From Kiloniella majae (GTDB lineage: Bacteria; Pseudomonadota; Alphaproteobacteria; Kiloniellales; Kiloniellaceae), in contig NZ_MTSZ01000003.1 in assembly GCF_002118315.1 (NCBI RefSeq), forward strand, positions 496,001 through 560,000: a stretch of DNA of 64,000 nt. Direction: 5' to 3'. Positions within the stretch are counted from its first letter, which is position 1. Each line of letters starts with the position of its first letter. The position numbers were made by a program, and so were the translations under genes. The notes under the pieces were generated by a model. It was not told the origin of the DNA. It searched no databases and saw only the letters and a list, made by a program, of their open reading frames with translations. Positions 17,901 through 26,318 of this stretch are shown here, piece after piece.

Positions 17901-18720
17901 CGCAGTAGCTGCCTTGGATGAAGAAACCGAGAAAATGAATCCTTTGGCTGCAAGAGTATCAGCTGAATCAGCGGATCTTATTGCTAAAGGGTTAGATGAA
18001 AAGACAGCGACTAAACGCGCTGGCTATCGTGTTTTTGGCTCTAAGCCTGGGGCTTATGGCGCTGGATTACAGGCGCTGATTGATGAACGCGGTTGGGAAA
18101 CTGAAGCTGATCTTGCCAAAGCCTATATAGGGTGGGGCGGTTATGCCTATGGTAGTGGTGGCGCAGGGGAAGCCGAACATGGCTTGTTTGAAAGTCGCTT
18201 GAGAGATGTGGAAGCGGTTATTCATAATCAGGATAATCGAGAGCACGACTTACTGGATTCCGATGATTATTACCAGTTTGAGGGGGGCATAACTGCGGCT
18301 ATTAGGCACCTTTCTGGGGAACAGCCAACTGTTTATCACAATGATCACTCTCGTCCTGAAAGCCCGCAGATCAGAACACTTCAGGAAGAAATCGGTCGGG
18401 TAGTCAGGGCGCGGGTCGTGAATCCAAAATGGATAGATGGTGTCAGACGTCATGGCTACAAGGGGGCTTTTGAAATGGCGGCGACCGTTGATTATCTTTT
18501 TGCCTTTGCAGCAACAGCGAAAGTAGTCGAAGATCATCATTTTGATGCTGTTTTTGATGCTTATTTGGATGATGCTGAGGTCCGTGAATTCTTGGAGCAA
18601 AATAACCCTGCGGCGTTGCGTGAAATGGCCGAACGGATGATCGAAGCACAGGACAGGAACTTATGGAAAGCGCGGTCCAATTCTGCGCGTGCTCTTTTGG
18701 AAAACATCGTTGCCAGTTAA
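14983..18720 (+). CDS. cobN: Cobaltochelatase subunit CobN
   Basis: Large subunit of the ATP-dependent aerobic (late-insertion) cobaltochelatase, which inserts cobalt into hydrogenobyrinic acid a,c-diamide. At 1245 residues it has the usual length. Recognisable segments include MANYPNRDGRMGNGVGLDTP, IHMGKHGNMEWLPGKS and GRNFYSVDSR, all typical of the CobN/BchH family, with a CobN-type ending. The partner subunits CobS and CobT are not in this window. It sits in cobU-cobW-cobN-cobO. Confidence 0.97.
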   Translation: MHLLQAQPGAIADGSEAIDLGQTPGDIVIVSAADTELASLVQARQVIGDAYPSLRLANLMQLSHNMSVDLYVDDIIANAKVVVARILGGAGYWPYGVEQLRAICKQKNIPLVLLPGDDQPDAELAAHSTVSRDVYHRVWQYFIHGGPDNSRNLLCYLAGLIDLDFEWVEPKPLLRSGIYWPGSDNPELGDLRNDWIAGAPVAAIVFYRALLQAANLAPVDALIKSLQEKGINPLPVYCASLKEPISAGIVSTLLNDADTGLILNATGFAISTPGADRKETPFDVVDAPILQVIFSGGNEAGWRDGLSGLSARDIAMNVALPEVDGRILSRAVSFKSEARYDEATQSSVVSYQEVADRIDFVADLAAAWLQLRNKEISERKVAVIMANYPNRDGRMGNGVGLDTPAGTIQLLQAMFDAGYSVTDIPVDGNALVERMAEGPTNAAVDGRVIRSKISLSAYKRFWDGLSVKVKSAIEDRWGAFENDPFFMPDADAFAVSAFHCGKIIIGLQPARGYNINPVETYHDPDLVPPHGYLAFYAWLRQEEKVDAIIHMGKHGNMEWLPGKSLALSEECFPEAVFGPTPHLYPFIVNDPGEGTQAKRRAQAVIIDHLTPPLTRAESYGPLADLEQLCDEYYEAAGVDPRRLKVLRDEILKITQRIGLDKDCGIEQTDDEDAALSKLDNYLCELKEMQIRDGLHIFGLAPEGRLLDDLLIALTRLPRGEGKEGDASLIRSLAKDLSFPIEFDPLDCRFGDPWSGPKPDILDAEGSWRTNGDTVERLEILAQKLVSGEAQALDEWENTRPVLDEIKSTIGPIVESCGAEEIKGTLRGLNGQFVEPGPSGAPTRGRPDVLPTGRNFYSVDSRVVPTPAAWHLGWKSANLMIERYRQENGFWPKRMALSAWGTSNMRTGGDDIAQGLALMGVQPKWEPTSRRVVGFEILPLSVLDRPRVDVTLRVSGFFRDAFPAQIDLFDSACRAVAALDEETEKMNPLAARVSAESADLIAKGLDEKTATKRAGYRVFGSKPGAYGAGLQALIDERGWETEADLAKAYIGWGGYAYGSGGAGEAEHGLFESRLRDVEAVIHNQDNREHDLLDSDDYYQFEGGITAAIRHLSGEQPTVYHNDHSRPESPQIRTLQEEIGRVVRARVVNPKWIDGVRRHGYKGAFEMAATVDYLFAFAATAKVVEDHHFDAVFDAYLDDAEVREFLEQNNPAALREMAERMIEAQDRNLWKARSNSARALLENIVAS

Positions 18721-18773
18721 ATAAACTGGTTTGTGAATCGTATAATTAGAGAAGATATTGGGGAGAAGATTAA

Positions 18774-19418
18774 ATGAGTGATACGGAAGATAAACAGAGC
18801 GCGGAAGATTTTGAGCGTGCTAACGAAAAATCAAAAAAACGCAAAGCCGCCCGGGACAAAATGCTATCGAACAAGGTCAACGAAAAAGGGTTGATCATTG
18901 TTCATACGGGTAAAGGTAAGGGTAAATCCACGGCCGCATTTGGCCTGGCGACACGTGCCGTTGGCAATGGCATGAAAATCGGTGTTGTGCAGTTTGTAAA
19001 AGGAAAGTGGGAAACAGGCGAAAAATACGTTCTGGAAAAATTCCCTGATCAAGTCGAGATGTATGCGCTTGGCGAAGGTTTTACCTGGGACACGCAAGAT
19101 AGAGAACGTGATATTGCTGCTGCTGAAAAAGCATGGGCAAAATCCAAAGAAATGATTGATGCCTGTCGCGGCGATAATCCGAAATACGACATGATTGTTT
19201 TGGACGAACTGAACATAACACTTCGTTATGATCATCTGGTTCTAGAGGAAGTGATTGATTTCCTCGAAAACAAACCAGAAGATTTACACGTTGTCATTAC
19301 TGGACGGAATGCCAAGGAAGAGATGATCGAAATCGCAGATCTGGTCACTGAAATGACCTTGGTTAAACACCCCTTTAGAGACCAAAATATCAAAGCCCAA
19401 CGCGGTATTGAGTTTTAA
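18774..19418 (+). CDS. cobO: Cob(I)yrinic acid a,c-diamide adenosyltransferase CobO (CobA/BtuR type)
   Basis: Transfers the 5'-deoxyadenosyl group of ATP to reduced cobalt, forming the Co-C bond. The 214-residue product has the P-loop variant GKGKGKST (near residues 46-53), the VQFVKGKWETGE segment, the MIVLDELNITLRY motif and the VITGRNA segment, all diagnostic of the CobA/BtuR/CobO family. A charged N-terminal extension of about 35 residues precedes the core. It is the last gene of the cobU-cobO block and ends at a strong terminator. Confidence 0.96.
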   Translation: MSDTEDKQSAEDFERANEKSKKRKAARDKMLSNKVNEKGLIIVHTGKGKGKSTAAFGLATRAVGNGMKIGVVQFVKGKWETGEKYVLEKFPDQVEMYALGEGFTWDTQDRERDIAAAEKAWAKSKEMIDACRGDNPKYDMIVLDELNITLRYDHLVLEEVIDFLENKPEDLHVVITGRNAKEEMIEIADLVTEMTLVKHPFRDQNIKAQRGIEF

Positions 19419-19443
19419 TCGGCTTTTTGGTGTTTTTGATGAT

Positions 19444-19473
19444 AAAAAGAGGCCCTTATCGAGGCCTCTTTTT
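19444..19473. terminator. Bidirectional terminator between cobO and the UbiA gene
   Basis: AAAAAGAGGCC and GGCCTCTTTTT form a perfect 11-bp stem around an 8-nt loop, with A and T runs that serve both strands. The left end of the convergent prenyltransferase gene falls inside it. Confidence 0.9.
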
Positions 19474-20374
19474 ATATTGATAAAGGTGCTTGCCCAGAGA
19501 TAACGATGTAGGCCGAAGCGGCAACCCATATGGCAATCGTGATCATCAGTTGTGGATCGGAAAAGAGTGCTTCTGTAGGAGATTCCCCTGCATTTGTCAT
19601 CTCCACAATGTACCAATATCTGTAAATACCAAACAGGACAATCGGGATTGTAATTGCGAGCTCTGGGCGTGTGGTAACAACGAAAAGACTATAGAAAACC
19701 AGTGCACCTGTTGCTGCCATTTCTGCAAAACGATTGACGAGAGATATTGAATAAGCCCCAAGGACTTCTCTGCCTGATGTGCCTCTATCTTGCAATTCTT
19801 GCCGCCTTTTAATTGAAGCGAGAAAGAGGGCCAGGCAAAGTGTTGTGACAAACATCCATGCTGAGACCGGTACATTCAAAACGGTTGCACCCGCAAAGAC
19901 GCGTAAAACAAAACCAATTGCAATGGTGAAGATATCCAGAACAGGTTGATGTTTTAGGTAAAAGCTATACCCAATATTGAGAAGGACATAGCCGAAGAGA
20001 ACAAATGTTGCTTCAGGAAAAAAGAAATACCCGACAATTAAAATACCATAGAGGCAGATCAGTAGAATAAAAGCCTGTGGAACGGAAAGCGCTCCCGAAG
20101 CCAAAGGACGTGTTTGTGATTTCTTAGGATGTTTTCGATCATTATCTATGTCTTTAATATCGTTGAGGACATAGACCGCAGATGATGCAATGCAGAATAA
20201 AAAAGTTATAATAAGTGTTTTTGTTATAGCCTCGTGGCTAGAGAATAACCCTGTAAACAATAGAGGTGCCAAAACAAAGCCGTTCTTAACCCAGTGCTTG
20301 GGGCGCATTAGCTTTGCAATGCTTAACCCGATAAAGGGGTGACTTTTGCTTTGTTCTTGGTTCTTATTATTCAT
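19472..20374 (-). CDS. UbiA-family decaprenyl-phosphate 5-phosphoribosyltransferase-like protein
   Basis: Polytopic UbiA-superfamily prenyltransferase of 300 residues. The first Asp-rich motif is N71-DIKDIDND-79 followed by RKHPKKSQTRPLASG, and it is preceded by RPKHWVKN. This layout matches mycobacterial Rv3806c (DPPR synthase, which transfers phosphoribose to decaprenyl phosphate) and NoeC of Azorhizobium rather than quinone or heme prenyltransferases. The second motif is SIKRRQELQD. It is divergent from, and only 26 bp away from, a GtrA gene followed by DprE1-like and DprE2-like genes, which strengthens the assignment. Confidence 0.8.
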   Translation of the reverse strand: MNNKNQEQSKSHPFIGLSIAKLMRPKHWVKNGFVLAPLLFTGLFSSHEAITKTLIITFLFCIASSAVYVLNDIKDIDNDRKHPKKSQTRPLASGALSVPQAFILLICLYGILIVGYFFFPEATFVLFGYVLLNIGYSFYLKHQPVLDIFTIAIGFVLRVFAGATVLNVPVSAWMFVTTLCLALFLASIKRRQELQDRGTSGREVLGAYSISLVNRFAEMAATGALVFYSLFVVTTRPELAITIPIVLFGIYRYWYIVEMTNAGESPTEALFSDPQLMITIAIWVAASAYIVISGQAPLSI

Positions 20375-20400
20375 ATCTAACTTTTAAACCGAAGTCCTTC

Positions 20401-20808
20401 ATGACCCTTTTGTTGAGCTATAGTCTCTTTGCTGTTTTTGCGACAATCGCGAATATTGTTTCTCAGGATCTATTTCTGAGATTTTATTCCGGCCCTTTTG
20501 CTCTTGTTTTGTCCATAGGGGTAGGGACGGGAGTTGGTCTTGTTACTAAGTATTTGCTAGATAAAAGGTATATATTTCGTTACCGAACGAGTGGTATGGG
20601 ACATGAAAGCAAAATTTTTATGCTTTATACGGTGATGGGTATCTTTACGACAGCGGTGTTCTGGGCTTTTGAATTTGGGTTTCATTTTATTTTTGATGAT
20701 AAAATGATGCGTTATCTCGGTGGTGTAATTGGCCTTGGGATTGGATACTGGATTAAATACCAACTGGATAAGAGGTACGTATTTATCTCGAAGGAAGCAA
20801 AATGCTAA
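20401..20808 (+). CDS. GtrA family membrane protein (putative polyprenyl-phospho-sugar flippase)
   Basis: Small four-helix membrane protein of 135 residues. It contains the GtrA pattern, an RF/LLDKRYIFRY-type segment repeated as YQLDKRYVF at the C-terminal end. GtrA proteins move polyprenyl-phosphate-linked sugars across the inner membrane or organise the transferase. In mycobacteria the GtrA protein Rv3789 is next to dprE1 and dprE2, the same order as here. It overlaps the DprE1-like gene by 7 bp, which implies co-translation. Confidence 0.82.
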   Translation: MTLLLSYSLFAVFATIANIVSQDLFLRFYSGPFALVLSIGVGTGVGLVTKYLLDKRYIFRYRTSGMGHESKIFMLYTVMGIFTTAVFWAFEFGFHFIFDDKMMRYLGGVIGLGIGYWIKYQLDKRYVFISKEAKC

Positions 20809-22118
20809 TCAGTGGCTGGGGGCAATATCCATACGCTGAGGCAGAAATCCTTAGCCCCGTGTCTAGTATTGAGCTTCAGCAAGATTTTAAAGATGGAAAG
20901 ACCACGGTCTGTGTGGCCCGGGGCTTAGGGCGTAGTTATGGGGATAGTTCTCTTTCTTCAACTGTTATATCCACAAGATATTTAAATCGCTTTCATTGTT
21001 TTGACGAAACAGCAGGTGTTCTAACCTGTGATGCCGGTGTTAGCCTTGATGACCTTCTGGGTGTCTTTGTACCCAAGGATTGGTTTCCGGTTGTTACGCC
21101 GGGAACAAGGTTTGTCACAGTTGGTGGAGCAATTGCCAGTGATGTACACGGAAAGAACCATCACAATGTGGGGACTTTTTGCGATCATGTTCTATCTTTT
21201 CGAATTTTGATTGCCAACGGAGATATCCTCAACTGTTCACCATCTGAAAACAGAGATTTATTTCTGGCAAGCTGTGGCGGAATGGGACTAACAGGTCTCA
21301 TTCTCGATGCGACATTCAAGTTAAAAAAAATTGAGAGTAGCTTTGTTGAAGAAACCACCTACAAGGCAGCTAATTTGAAAGAGTGCCTGGCGCTTTTCGA
21401 TGAACACAATTCGGCGATCTATTCGGTTGCCTGGATTGATTGTTTAAAACAGGGAAAGGAACTCGGACGGTCTTTATTAATGCTGGGAAGGCATAGTGAC
21501 AAAGGTGGATACATTGATCTGAAAAAAACAGTACCTTCCATTCCTTTTAATATGCCGGGTTTTTGTTTGAACAAATTCTCAGTGGGAGTCTTTAATAGTC
21601 TTTATTACGGGAGAGTGCGTGAAAAAATTCAGGAACGTCAGGTTCATTATAGTCCCTATTTTTATCCTTTGGATGGCATAGAAAACTGGACGCGGCTTTA
21701 TGGCGCAAAAGGTTTTGTACAATATCAGTTTGTAATTCCAAAAGAGGCAGGCCTAGAGGGAATGACGTGTGTCCTGGATAAGATAGCTCAATCGGGAGCG
21801 GGATCTTTTCTCTCGGTTTTGAAGGTTTTTGGCAAAGGAAATGATAACTTTCTTTCTTTTCCTTTTGAAGGTTACACGCTGGCATTGGACTTCAAAGTCA
21901 GTACGCGAACCTTTGAATTGTTGGACCAACTGGATGCAATTGTTCATGACTATGGCGGAAGGATCTATCTGACAAAAGATGCCCGTATGAGTGAGCGGGT
22001 ATTCAAGAAGGGGTATCCTGAATGGGAAGCCTTTCAAACGGTTAGAGAAAAGTATGGTGTACTTGGAATTTTTTCTTCTTTGCAGTCGAGACGTTTGGGG
22101 TTGGATGTCGAGCACTAG
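20802..22118 (+). CDS. DprE1-like FAD-dependent oxidoreductase (decaprenylphosphoryl-ribose 2'-oxidase family)
   Basis: VAO/FAD_binding_4 flavoprotein of 438 residues. The FAD-binding segments ARGLGRSYGDSS and TPGTRFVTVGGAIASDVHGKNHH are very close to mycobacterial DprE1, as is the C-terminal GGRIYLTKDARM stretch. DprE1 oxidises decaprenyl-phospho-ribose at C2', the first half of epimerisation to the arabinose form. In the segment aligned by eye to DprE1's WN-C-VDF region, this protein has GYTLALDF, with alanine (A361) where the benzothiazinone-target cysteine lies. It is followed 15 bp later by the reductase gene. Confidence 0.85.
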   Translation: MLISGWGQYPYAEAEILSPVSSIELQQDFKDGKTTVCVARGLGRSYGDSSLSSTVISTRYLNRFHCFDETAGVLTCDAGVSLDDLLGVFVPKDWFPVVTPGTRFVTVGGAIASDVHGKNHHNVGTFCDHVLSFRILIANGDILNCSPSENRDLFLASCGGMGLTGLILDATFKLKKIESSFVEETTYKAANLKECLALFDEHNSAIYSVAWIDCLKQGKELGRSLLMLGRHSDKGGYIDLKKTVPSIPFNMPGFCLNKFSVGVFNSLYYGRVREKIQERQVHYSPYFYPLDGIENWTRLYGAKGFVQYQFVIPKEAGLEGMTCVLDKIAQSGAGSFLSVLKVFGKGNDNFLSFPFEGYTLALDFKVSTRTFELLDQLDAIVHDYGGRIYLTKDARMSERVFKKGYPEWEAFQTVREKYGVLGIFSSLQSRRLGLDVEH

Positions 22119-22133
22119 GATATTGAGGCATAT

Positions 22134-22871
22134 ATGAAAAAAGTACTTATAATCGGGGCAACGTCAGCGATTGCAGAAGCAACAGCAAGGCTTTTTGCGA
22201 AACGTGGTGATCAACTGTTTTTATTTGCCCGGGATCAGGAAAAACTTGCAACCATTGCCAATGATCTAAAGATTCGGGGTGCTCAGGATGTTTACACAGG
22301 CGTGTATGATGCTTCAATACAGCAAGACAATGAGAACAACTTTGAAGAAGCCATAAAGCAGCTTGGTGGTTTAGATGTTCTTTTTGTCGCTCATGGTATT
22401 CTACCAGACCAAAAGGCTTGTGAAGTCTCTATCGATGACACAGTGAAGGCCTTTGATATCAATGCGACCAGTGTCTTTGCAATACTGACGCATTTTGCCA
22501 ATGTTTTCGAAACTCAAAAAAAGGGATCAATTGCTGTTATCTCTTCTGTTGCAGGAGATCGGGGGCGGCAATCCAATTATGTTTATGGTGCTGCAAAAGG
22601 CGCTGTCACTATCTTCTTGCAGGGTTTACGGCATCGTCTTGCCAAATCTGGTGTTCAGGTTTTGGCGATTAAGCCGGGTTTTGTTGATACACCGATGACA
22701 GCTACTTTTGACAAGGGGGCGTTATGGGCGCAACCCGAACAGATTGCTAAGCTGATTGTTAGGTCTTTGGATCGGAAAAAGTCAGTTATTTATACACCCT
22801 GGTTCTGGGGAGTCATCATGTTGATTATACGCTCTGTTCCTGATTGGATTTTTCATAAAACCCGTCTTTAG
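22134..22871 (+). CDS. DprE2-like short-chain dehydrogenase/reductase
   Basis: SDR of 245 residues. The N-terminal cofactor motif is GATSAIAEATARLFAKRG, the variant seen in DprE2-like proteins rather than the usual TGxxxGIG. The active site is Ser in VISSVAGDRGRQ with YVYGAAKGA as YxxxK. In the known pathway DprE2 reduces the 2'-keto intermediate to decaprenylphosphoryl arabinose. The C-terminal hydrophobic stretch (FWGVIMLIIRSVPDWIF) may associate with the membrane. It is last in the GtrA-DprE1-DprE2 unit. Confidence 0.83.
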   Translation: MKKVLIIGATSAIAEATARLFAKRGDQLFLFARDQEKLATIANDLKIRGAQDVYTGVYDASIQQDNENNFEEAIKQLGGLDVLFVAHGILPDQKACEVSIDDTVKAFDINATSVFAILTHFANVFETQKKGSIAVISSVAGDRGRQSNYVYGAAKGAVTIFLQGLRHRLAKSGVQVLAIKPGFVDTPMTATFDKGALWAQPEQIAKLIVRSLDRKKSVIYTPWFWGVIMLIIRSVPDWIFHKTRL

Positions 22872-22980
22872 ATTTTGTGATTTTAAATTTTATGGACTTT
22901 AGATTTTTATAGGAACGTCCTAAGCTCCGATACTTTCTTTGTTGCAGTTTTTAATCGCTGCTATTTATTCGGAGACATAG

Positions 22981-24507: not shown

Positions 24508-25653
24508 CTAGTTCACGAGCGGGAGTTCTGCTGCGGCAGCTAAGCGAGCGAGCTCTGTACGATTTCTCGTCCATGTTTTTGCGAGTAGATTCGAGACATG
24601 ACTTTTAATGGTTTCTAAGCCGCAGTTTCTAATACTGGCAATATCGCGGTTTGTATTGCCTTCTAACAATAGTTGGCATATTTCTTTTTCAGTTGATGTT
24701 AAGGAGTAAGATTTTGCTAACTTTTGGGCGTTAGTTACCAATCTCCATTCGGGATCAACAGCAAAAATTATAGACCACCCATTAAGAGGACTATCTTTCC
24801 CTTTGCGACCTAATGGCGAAATTTCGAGACTTACTGGACATGGATTATCATTTTTAGAAATATTTAAAAATGTTCCTCCAGCAAAATCAGCTCCAATACT
24901 CATTTTTGATGTGTCGCTAATTGATTGAAGCAGAATCGAATCTGTTTTTTGATCCTTTGCTCGCAAGCGATTGTGAGGGTCAAGGTAAAGACTATCCAAA
25001 TCCAGAATTTGATCAAAGGCAGTGTTTTTGAGAATCAGGGTGCCGTTATTTGAAACAATGCCTATACCGATTGCCAGCTTGTCGAGAACATCTAGCAACA
25101 TTCCATACTGTGATTTCAATAGATGTACGGGGCGTATTAATGATGTCGCACGTTTTAGGTAGGGGACGAGCTCTGATACAGTATCACGGGCGATGGGAAC
25201 CTGATTATGATAATTACGACTAAACTGTAATCCTAAAACATCGACCCAAGGGGCTTTTTGATTTATCAATATCCCCATTCTCATAAAGACATTGAGGTTG
25301 ATTTCTGCATCGCGAAAAGCATTGGTACTGTCAATCCCGTTGCTTAAGGCAAGCATCTCTCTGTCTGTTAAGGTCGAGTATTCGGGTTGGTTTTTTAATT
25401 GTTCTACACATACGGTACATAAATCAGATTCAAATTTTCCGTGTGCCGTTATGTATTTCCAATATTCTTCCTCGGGATAGCTATCACTGAACTTATTGTA
25501 GTTGTATAACTCGGGAGTATTCGGCTCGATCAGGGCAAAAACGGCTCCGTTAGCATTGCAGGCGGTTGCAATAGCGCTTAAGGCTTCGGGCCACTTCTTT
25601 GGTTCCAGTGCAGCTTCGTAAGCTAATGCAACGGCATTTAACTGCTTTTGCAT
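24508..25653 (-). CDS. LuxR-family transcriptional regulator with N-terminal sensor region
   Basis: 381 residues. The C-terminal part is a LuxR-type helix-turn-helix (LTSTEKEICQLLLEGNTNRDIA, then GLETIKSHVSNLLAKT). The N-terminal 180 residues are a sensor-like domain of unknown ligand, and a PAS-like segment (GIGIVSNNGTLILKN) lies around residues 195-230. No receiver domain is seen, so it is not a classical response regulator. It is divergent from a lipoprotein gene across a 263-bp region containing a GC-rich hairpin, and may control that gene or itself. Confidence 0.85.
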   Translation of the reverse strand: MQKQLNAVALAYEAALEPKKWPEALSAIATACNANGAVFALIEPNTPELYNYNKFSDSYPEEEYWKYITAHGKFESDLCTVCVEQLKNQPEYSTLTDREMLALSNGIDSTNAFRDAEINLNVFMRMGILINQKAPWVDVLGLQFSRNYHNQVPIARDTVSELVPYLKRATSLIRPVHLLKSQYGMLLDVLDKLAIGIGIVSNNGTLILKNTAFDQILDLDSLYLDPHNRLRAKDQKTDSILLQSISDTSKMSIGADFAGGTFLNISKNDNPCPVSLEISPLGRKGKDSPLNGWSIIFAVDPEWRLVTNAQKLAKSYSLTSTEKEICQLLLEGNTNRDIASIRNCGLETIKSHVSNLLAKTWTRNRTELARLAAAAELPLVN

Positions 25654-25719
25654 TTTTTTCTCCGTAAATACACGAATAAGTAGAAAGTAGCTGTAGATTA
25701 AAAATATATCAATCTTTGT

Positions 25720-25742
25720 TCTTCCCCCGACTGGGGGAGGAA
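25720..25742. other. G/C-tract hairpin in the luxR-lipoprotein intergenic region
   Basis: TTCCCCC, GACT, then GGGGGAGGAA form a short, very GC-rich stem with one bulge in an otherwise AT-rich 263-bp intergenic region. No T-run follows. It could be an operator for the LuxR protein or a 5'-UTR structure. Confidence 0.35.
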
Positions 25743-25916
25743 AAGAAAAATCATCTTGGTTAATATTCCTTTAGGAGGGGTATTTGAGGGCTTGGTTAAC
25801 GGGATGCCATGAACTGTAAGCGTTGGAAGAGTTATTTGTTCCCGAATACAAATCACGGCGCCTATGTTCTCGAAAATCTTTCCTTAATTAATCCTAATCA
25901 TAAATCGGGTGAAATT

Positions 25917-26318
25917 ATGAAGAAACTAAATGTATTGATTTTTCTTGTTGTTGGATTGGCTGTTAGTGCTTGTCAAACTGCTGGGCAGGCATTGGAGAAA
26001 GCTGGTGCGCAAAAGTTAAGTAAAGAAGAGATCACGACCTTATTTTCAGGTAATACTTGGAAGTGGAAACAAGGTGGCGGATATTACGATCCTGACGGAA
26101 CGATCCATACTTTATGGGACGGTGAGCGCCAAACAGGTACATGGGCGGCAAATGATAATGGTGAATTGTGCCGCGATGTTGAAGCCTGGGGTGGGAATAA
26201 GTGTACCGTTTCTTTTTATAAGCAAGGTGATGTCATTAAAGCTATATATAAGAACCGTTCGTCAGTCCTTGATACAGAGAAAAAGATATTCAAGGGAAAT
26301 ATTCTGGACTCCTTATAA
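25917..26318 (+). CDS. Putative lipoprotein of unknown function (DUF995-like)
   Basis: I start at the ATG at 25917, giving 133 residues, because it begins a clear type II signal peptide (KKLNVLIFLVVGLAVSAC) with the lipobox VSAC. A longer frame upstream has no signal. The mature part has LFSGNTWKWKQGGGYYDPDGT, GTWAANDNGELC and C-TVSFYKQGD segments, resembling the DUF995-type fold with one probable disulfide. It is presumably a periplasm-facing outer-membrane lipoprotein. The role is unknown. Confidence 0.7.
   Translation: MKKLNVLIFLVVGLAVSACQTAGQALEKAGAQKLSKEEITTLFSGNTWKWKQGGGYYDPDGTIHTLWDGERQTGTWAANDNGELCRDVEAWGGNKCTVSFYKQGDVIKAIYKNRSSVLDTEKKIFKGNILDSL

Follow-up and report, generated by a model that had tools for sequence, protein, structure and literature searches.

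A putative polyprenyl-phosphate pentofuranose donor cassette in Kiloniella majae and its likely GT87 partners

Four neighbouring genes in a 64,000-nucleotide stretch of the Kiloniella majae genome (hereafter the window; contig C22:496001-560000 of the 4.38-Mb genome G000) raise the question of what enzymes resembling those that supply D-arabinofuranose, a sugar best known from the mycobacterial wall, might do in an alphaproteobacterium, and which transferase would use their product. A preliminary description of the window had placed a UbiA-type, a GtrA, a DprE1-like and a DprE2-like gene at 19472-22871 and read them as a complete decaprenylphosphoryl-arabinose (DPA)-type cassette, and all four open reading frames are present there (Table 1). 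We consider it probable that they were acquired horizontally as a module supplying the donor for pentofuranosylation outside the cytoplasm, D-arabinofuranosylation being the likeliest form, with GT87 proteins encoded elsewhere in the genome as the transferases. This proposal builds on the identities of the genes and their conserved active sites, and on the finding that the cassette is inserted as a discrete unit that is polymorphic among relatives and co-varies with GT87 genes.

By analogy with the homologues of UbiA, DprE1, DprE2 and GtrA, the following pathway may be envisaged. UbiA would move 5-phosphoribose from phosphoribosyl pyrophosphate onto polyprenyl phosphate, giving polyprenyl-P-ribose-5-P, from which a host phosphatase would take off the 5'-phosphate; DprE1 would oxidise C2 and DprE2 would reduce it with inversion, yielding polyprenyl-phosphoryl-beta-D-arabinofuranose; and GtrA would flip the arabinose lipid to the periplasmic face. 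There, as co-occurrence suggests, GT87 enzymes might pass the arabinose on to a glycan or protein of the cell surface, an ABC-exported O-polysaccharide being one possibility. The carrier lipid is probably undecaprenyl (C55) rather than decaprenyl phosphate. The same view is echoed in PMC11127046.

Enzymes of the cassette

The preliminary description had recognised in UbiA an NDIKDIDND...KHP motif of the Rv3806c kind, and the motif is indeed present (N71, D72, D75, D79, H82, P83). The N-D-x2-D-x3-D of loop II corresponds to N71, D72, D75 and D79 and the R-x2-E of loop IV to R190 and E193 in KRRQEL; N71, D72, D75, D79, K189 and R190 are invariant across 32 aligned UbiA sequences. Counterparts of the four loop-II residues and of the loop-IV KRRQE stretch were mutated in the Citrobacter ORF15 study, and the active-site residues studied in ORF15 and Rv3806c are kept here. 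Against NCBIfam NF008977, the model for decaprenylphosphoryl-5-phosphoribose (DPPR) synthase/phosphoribosyltransferase, UbiA scores 218.8 bits, compared with 167 bits for a related HAD-UbiA fusion model and 40 bits for the best ordinary UbiA model; because the first score does not reach the equivalog cut-off of 234, we name the protein by function and subfamily and not as an NF008977 equivalog. Its best match in the PDB is 8j8j (Rv3806c; E 2.4e-30), 8j8j and 8j8k being its only strong relatives there. A profile of cassette UbiAs scores 249 bits with 8j8j and 51 bits with the next different protein, and the predicted model of UbiA retrieves 8j8j first in a fold comparison (TM 0.80, E 1.4e-11; next UbiA homologue E 7e-6). 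Profile, motif and modelled fold all place UbiA among the polyprenyl-phosphate phosphoribosyltransferases of the Rv3806c kind.

DprE1 scores 403 bits against its NCBIfam model (next FAD family 57 bits), below an equivalog cut-off of 500 bits that none of 61 genomes of the order reaches. Its best PDB matches are all mycobacterial DprE1, over the whole length (E 8e-80); identity is 37% to the Mycobacterium tuberculosis enzyme and 84% to those of K. litopenaei and K. spongiae, the nearest named relatives. H116, K118, Q307, Q309, K341 and K392 correspond to M. tuberculosis H132, K134, Q334, Q336, K367 and K418, and with this active-site set in place oxidation of polyprenyl-P-ribose is predicted. 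Ala361 stands at the position of M. tuberculosis Cys387, the benzothiazinone target. Alanine occupies this position in most non-actinobacterial DprE1 proteins (82 of 89 aligned DprE1 relatives); in M. avium it is given as the cause of natural resistance, and it predicts that most non-actinobacterial DprE1 enzymes evade covalent DprE1 drugs.

DprE2 is the softest assignment, because the SDR (short-chain dehydrogenase/reductase) family is large. As a single sequence it finds M. tuberculosis DprE2 (21gq_C) as its best PDB match, and a profile of DprE2s scores 220 bits with the mycobacterial enzyme and 111 bits with the next SDR, some actinobacterial-type rows in the profile biasing it slightly toward that match. 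The protein passes NCBIfam PRK07102 (317 bits) and does not pass the DprE2 model (171 bits); it carries the SDR motif Y151GAAK155, and a fold search ranked generic SDRs first, with DprE2 not among the matches listed. The GtrA protein scores 176 bits against NCBIfam gtrA_1 (cut-off 50) and matches Pfam PF04138, and its family points to a role as a putative flippase.

The preliminary description had staked its proposal on the proteins falling inside the DprE1, DprE2 and Rv3806c clades. The profiles put them inside these groups and the UbiA model matches 8j8j best; the DprE2 fold search gave no separation. What stands of the proposed DPA-type pathway, supported by profiles, catalytic residues and synteny, is the set of enzyme assignments and a polyprenyl-phosphate-linked, C2-epimerised pentofuranose as the predicted product; what does not stand is its completeness, a phosphatase and a transferase being missing from the cassette.

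Insertion and origin of the cassette

The cassette forms a discrete insertion of 3.5 kb, with cobO on one side and a flavin-reductase gene on the other. In the relative G046, whose cobO is 99% identical, the end of cobO runs directly into the flavin-reductase gene, the 3.5 kb being absent, and the flanks align continuously with the window (18700-19417 at 90% DNA identity and from about 22897 onward at 87%); G043 and G042 are likewise without the cassette at this site. Its GC content is about 0.42 as compared to 0.48 in the cob genes, and UbiA is 55-56% identical to its counterparts in Neptuniibacter and Thiomicrorhabdus as against 26-39% for the other non-Kiloniella rows. A DprE1 tree nests the Kiloniella proteins within a gammaproteobacterial group (SH-aLRT 97), apart from the DprE1 of other members of their own order. 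These comparisons identify the cassette as horizontally acquired, with a gammaproteobacterial origin indicated by the DprE1 tree.

The genes gtrA, dprE1 and dprE2 run rightward in an apparent operon, with a 7-bp overlap between the first two and a 15-bp gap between the last two, and ubiA runs leftward. The start codons of the divergent ubiA and gtrA are just 26 bp apart (window 20374-20401; 24 bp in K. litopenaei), so their promoters must extend into coding sequence. The palindrome between the convergent cobO and ubiA (Table 1) is, to judge from its letters, likely a bidirectional terminator, and it was not among the elements listed by a consensus scan.

Table 1. Features of the cassette region (window coordinates) and the GT87 genes (contig coordinates)
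Feature	Position	Strand	Length and basis
UbiA-superfamily polyprenyl-phosphate 5-phosphoribosyltransferase (PPPRS; Rv3806c-like)	19472..20374	-	300 aa; profiles, PDB, fold, motif
GtrA-family small membrane protein, putative polyprenyl-P-sugar flippase (Rv3789-like role)	20401..20808	+	135 aa; NCBIfam, Pfam
DprE1, predicted polyprenylphosphoryl-beta-D-ribose 2'-oxidase (FAD)	20802..22118	+	438 aa; NCBIfam, PDB, active-site residues
DprE2-like SDR, predicted keto-reductase completing C2 epimerisation	22134..22871	+	245 aa; PDB, family profile
Insertion, absent at the same site in G046, G043 and G042	19419..22896		flank alignment
A-rich/T-rich palindrome AAAAAGAGGCC...GGCCTCTTTTT, lying where cobO and ubiA converge	19444..19473		read from sequence
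GT87 gene, single, between a 95-aa gene and nnrS	C54:50489-51724		PF09594
GT87 tandem pair (one gene in G047), with dCMP-deaminase and CitMHS transporter genes on either side	C11:353285-355969		PF09594

Further along the cobalamin locus, between the TauE and cobD genes (window 24508-26318), lie a LuxR-type regulator and a DUF995 gene. Comparison with seven Kiloniella relatives found neither of them at this locus; the stretch is a second, separate indel.

UbiA, DprE1 and DprE2 are also encoded side by side in Bacteroidota, Gammaproteobacteria and Actinomycetota, and those loci commonly include a HAD phosphatase, as its own gene or as a UbiA fusion, or an adjoining polytopic candidate glycosyltransferase of the GT-C type, or both. 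For instance, a polytopic protein of ~545 aa, with strongly conserved WEGAYR/PWYNHS-type motifs and only sub-threshold Pfam matches, adjoins UbiA-DprE1-DprE2-HAD in 31 loci (L036:7363-8997, minus strand, and about 30 further Bacteroidota loci) and is a candidate new family of GT-C arabinosyltransferases.

The phosphatase and the transferase

The cassette had been called complete, and this we cannot uphold: neither a homologue of a DPPR 5'-phosphatase nor a transferase is among its genes. The mycobacterial pathway requires the 5'-phosphatase Rv3807c, and the M. tuberculosis and Pseudomonas aeruginosa systems have a separate phosphatase of another family than the HAD-type PRP (PMC11127046). In Bacteroidota and some others the 5'-phosphatase is a HAD protein beside dprE2 (38 compared loci) or a UbiA fusion of about 475 aa. 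The Kiloniella UbiA is a plain protein lacking a HAD domain, and no HAD gene lies at the cassette; the plain-UbiA, GtrA-type cassettes of Gammaproteobacteria (Neptuniibacter, Thiomicrorhabdus, Bse_30) are also without an adjoining HAD gene. The genome-wide search for a DPPR phosphatase that the preliminary description had called for gave no match in G000 to a profile of the HAD proteins of Bacteroidota and some others at E 0.001. Relatives of this HAD type occur in G042, G043, G047 and G048, a distribution that does not follow the cassette, and as partners they were set aside. The four PAP2 proteins of G000 are uninformative, as PAP2 is present in all nine genomes of the genus.

The absence of an arabinosyltransferase from the window had been noted before, and we likewise find none beside the cassette; transferases of the Emb/AftA/AftB/AftD type were not searched for. 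In the search for the missing TRANSFERASES, a match was reached quickly, GT87 being third among the GT-C families tried. PMT_2 transferases (PF13231), which adjoin the cassette in several Gammaproteobacteria, do not occur in the G000 genome, and the ~545-aa Bacteroidota protein found no relative in the genus Kiloniella, in a search without a positive control. The search for GT-C transferases in the rest of the genome, as suggested earlier, did yield three candidates, GT87 genes that are unlinked to the cassette and co-vary with it.

These three proteins score 122.7, 85.9 and 94.4 bits against PF09594 (cut-off 25) and are members of the family, the tandem pair forming its own deep clade. In the GT87 alignment a GxDF close to the N-terminus is invariant, and the only PDB match of the GT87 profile is PimE (E 0.015), a GT-C enzyme with a polyprenyl-P-mannose donor whose catalytic base is an aspartate in the first juxtamembrane segment, a requirement that the invariant N-terminal Asp fits. 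Mycobacterial AftC is also a GT87 member. The AftC paper, which names no family, presents it as a DPA-using enzyme of the GT-C type. At the site of the single GT87 gene, the alignment of the adjacent nnrS reads through in-frame stops in G049 (L197) and G048 (L198), where nnrS may be shifted, decaying or merely differently ended.

GT87 genes are present in G000, G044, G047, G048 and G049 and absent from G042, G043 and G046, that is, they occur in all five near-complete cassette-bearing Kiloniella genomes and in none of the three cassette-free ones (G045, a partial assembly of 1.5 Mb whose cassette is truncated where a contig ends, stands outside the five). In the cassette-free genomes both GT87 sites are closed, and the genes that flank them are kept. 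Among 51 genes of at least 100 aa at the three unlinked sites (the cassette and the two GT87 sites), seven show the pattern of presence in G049, G044, G048 and G047 and absence from G046, G043 and G042, namely the four genes of the cassette and the three of the GT87 family. Since G046 branches inside the cassette-bearing clade (support 100/100), its absences are best read as joint loss at three loci. Fisher's test gives p = 0.018 at the genus level, uncorrected for kinship, and at the family level strong GT87 matches are found in 6/6 DprE1-bearing genomes versus 2/16 others (p = 0.0004). On this co-occurrence the three GT87 genes are the likely partner transferases of the cassette.

Alternatively, the cassette might make polyprenyl-P-D-arabinofuranose with the GT87 proteins not its partners, these using instead a polyprenyl-P-hexose made by a GT2 enzyme while another, unrecognised GT-C protein (e.g., a 651-aa protein encoded on contig C44) transfers the arabinose. 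GT87 genes do occur in genomes without DprE1, PimE, which the GT87 profile matches, uses mannose, and a GT2 gene, a DUF2304 gene and the gene for the 651-aa protein lie in an ABC-type O-antigen cluster of G000; yet the GT87 genes are the only ones, at two sites unlinked to the cassette, to share its presence and absence with clean empty sites, and no cassette-free Kiloniella keeps a GT87 gene, so that we regard this alternative as rather unlikely. The C44 set itself (L240:12781-16044, about 210.7-213.9 kb of the contig), whose polytopic 651-aa protein has no Pfam match, stands beside Wzm/Wzt-like ABC exporter genes and is a possible second lipid-linked sugar module. The region has an ABC-2 exporter and a Wzt-like protein and nothing that ties it to the cassette; its ABC-exported O-polysaccharide is a plausible acceptor.

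Several points nonetheless weigh against an arabinofuranose module served by GT87 transferases. No dedicated 5'-phosphatase was found, the HAD type being absent from G000 and PAP2 not tracking the cassette; the association of GT87 with DprE1 is weak at the order level (9/14 versus 17/47 genomes, p = 0.07); and at the genus level it rests on just two independent evolutionary transitions, because of which a sign test cannot reach significance. Moreover, the GT87 gene of G057 has a GT2 gene and a further GT-C-like gene in its vicinity, and this GT2 could make a different lipid donor, while G000 itself has a GT2/DUF2304 pair in its O-antigen cluster. Finally, UbiA and DprE1 both score short of the curated NCBIfam equivalog cut-offs, as is to be expected of a distant subfamily. 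With so few transitions, and as GT87 proteins elsewhere clearly can have other donors, we hold the link between GT87 and the cassette to be a good but not proven one. More tentatively still, we speculate that the GT87 proteins of Kiloniella, and the tandem pair in particular, represent a type of D-arabinofuranosyltransferase that has not been described from Gram-negative bacteria, and that together with the mobile cassette they would build an arabinan-like decoration gained and lost as one dispersed unit, an idea that we ourselves find somewhat doubtful.

It is also conceivable that DprE1 and DprE2 have diverged in specificity and that the end sugar is another pentofuranose, plain ribofuranose or another epimer. 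The modest identity to M. tuberculosis DprE1, the scores below the equivalog cut-offs and the differences at substrate-pocket positions (Y314F, N385T and C387A in M. tuberculosis numbering) would allow for this, as would related systems in which different epimerases yield xylofuranose. Against it, the catalytic residues are kept, and a paired FAD oxidase and SDR is the known C2 epimerase; the system for xylofuranose relies on one SDR epimerase of a different kind, and systems for glycans with known arabinofuranose (Araf) side chains hold DprE1/E2 homologues. We think such a divergence improbable. That the cassette serves the cobalamin genes around it, as its place between cobO and other genes of that locus might suggest, we find scarcely credible, given that relatives retain the whole cob locus without it and that cassettes elsewhere lie in unrelated contexts.

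Comparison with known systems

Should a pentofuranose donor module with GT87 transferases be confirmed, Kiloniella would offer a harmless marine model of mycobacterial donor chemistry, with cassette-free close relatives as natural controls and three transferase candidates. The all-or-none polymorphism among closely related genomes points to variable selection on a surface trait, perhaps driven by phages; phage-related selection has been reported for arabinosylated Pseudomonas pili.

With the mycobacterial DPA pathway (Rv3806c, Rv3807c, DprE1 Rv3790, DprE2 Rv3791 and Rv3789, with Emb/Aft transferases) the cassette shares a homologous phosphoribosyltransferase, oxidase and reductase whose active-site residues are kept, and a small membrane protein of the GtrA family as putative flippase. 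It differs in lacking an Rv3807c-like gene, in the alanine in place of Cys387, in a lipid that is probably C55 and in its Gram-negative setting. The three-component pentofuranosylation described for Citrobacter youngae O1/O2, in which DprE1/E2 are explicitly included for Araf (Kelly et al. 2024, PMC11127046), is similar in having a PPPRS, a flippase and a GT-C transferase (here the GT87 candidates), as well as DprE1/E2 homologues where the sugar is Araf. However, the Citrobacter systems have a MATE flippase, a PRP phosphatase domain and GT136, as compared to GtrA, no PRP domain and unlinked GT87 candidates in Kiloniella; of the three-component arrangement, Kiloniella retains the flippase gene (gtrA) beside the synthase and lacks the phosphatase with it.

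The type IV pilin D-Araf system of P. aeruginosa and P. paraeruginosa (PSPA7_6245-6251, TfpW; PMC12369383) likewise has its donor cassette and transferase at separate loci, the cassette being a variable island; TfpW, however, is linked to pilA, with pilin as the acceptor, whereas the Kiloniella GT87 genes stand in housekeeping surroundings. Azorhizobium noeCHOP, for Nod-factor arabinosylation, are by the description in PMC2443382 alphaproteobacterial homologues of the arabinose-precursor genes, but the Kiloniella cassette lies outside a nod operon and is of gammaproteobacterial type. The donor chemistry, from mycobacteria, Azorhizobium and Pseudomonas, and the extracytoplasmic addition of pentofuranoses are thus known already; what is new here is the proposed pairing of GT87 with the cassette, and what differs is the combination of a putative GtrA flippase, no phosphatase module and dispersed GT87 candidates that are gained or lost with it.

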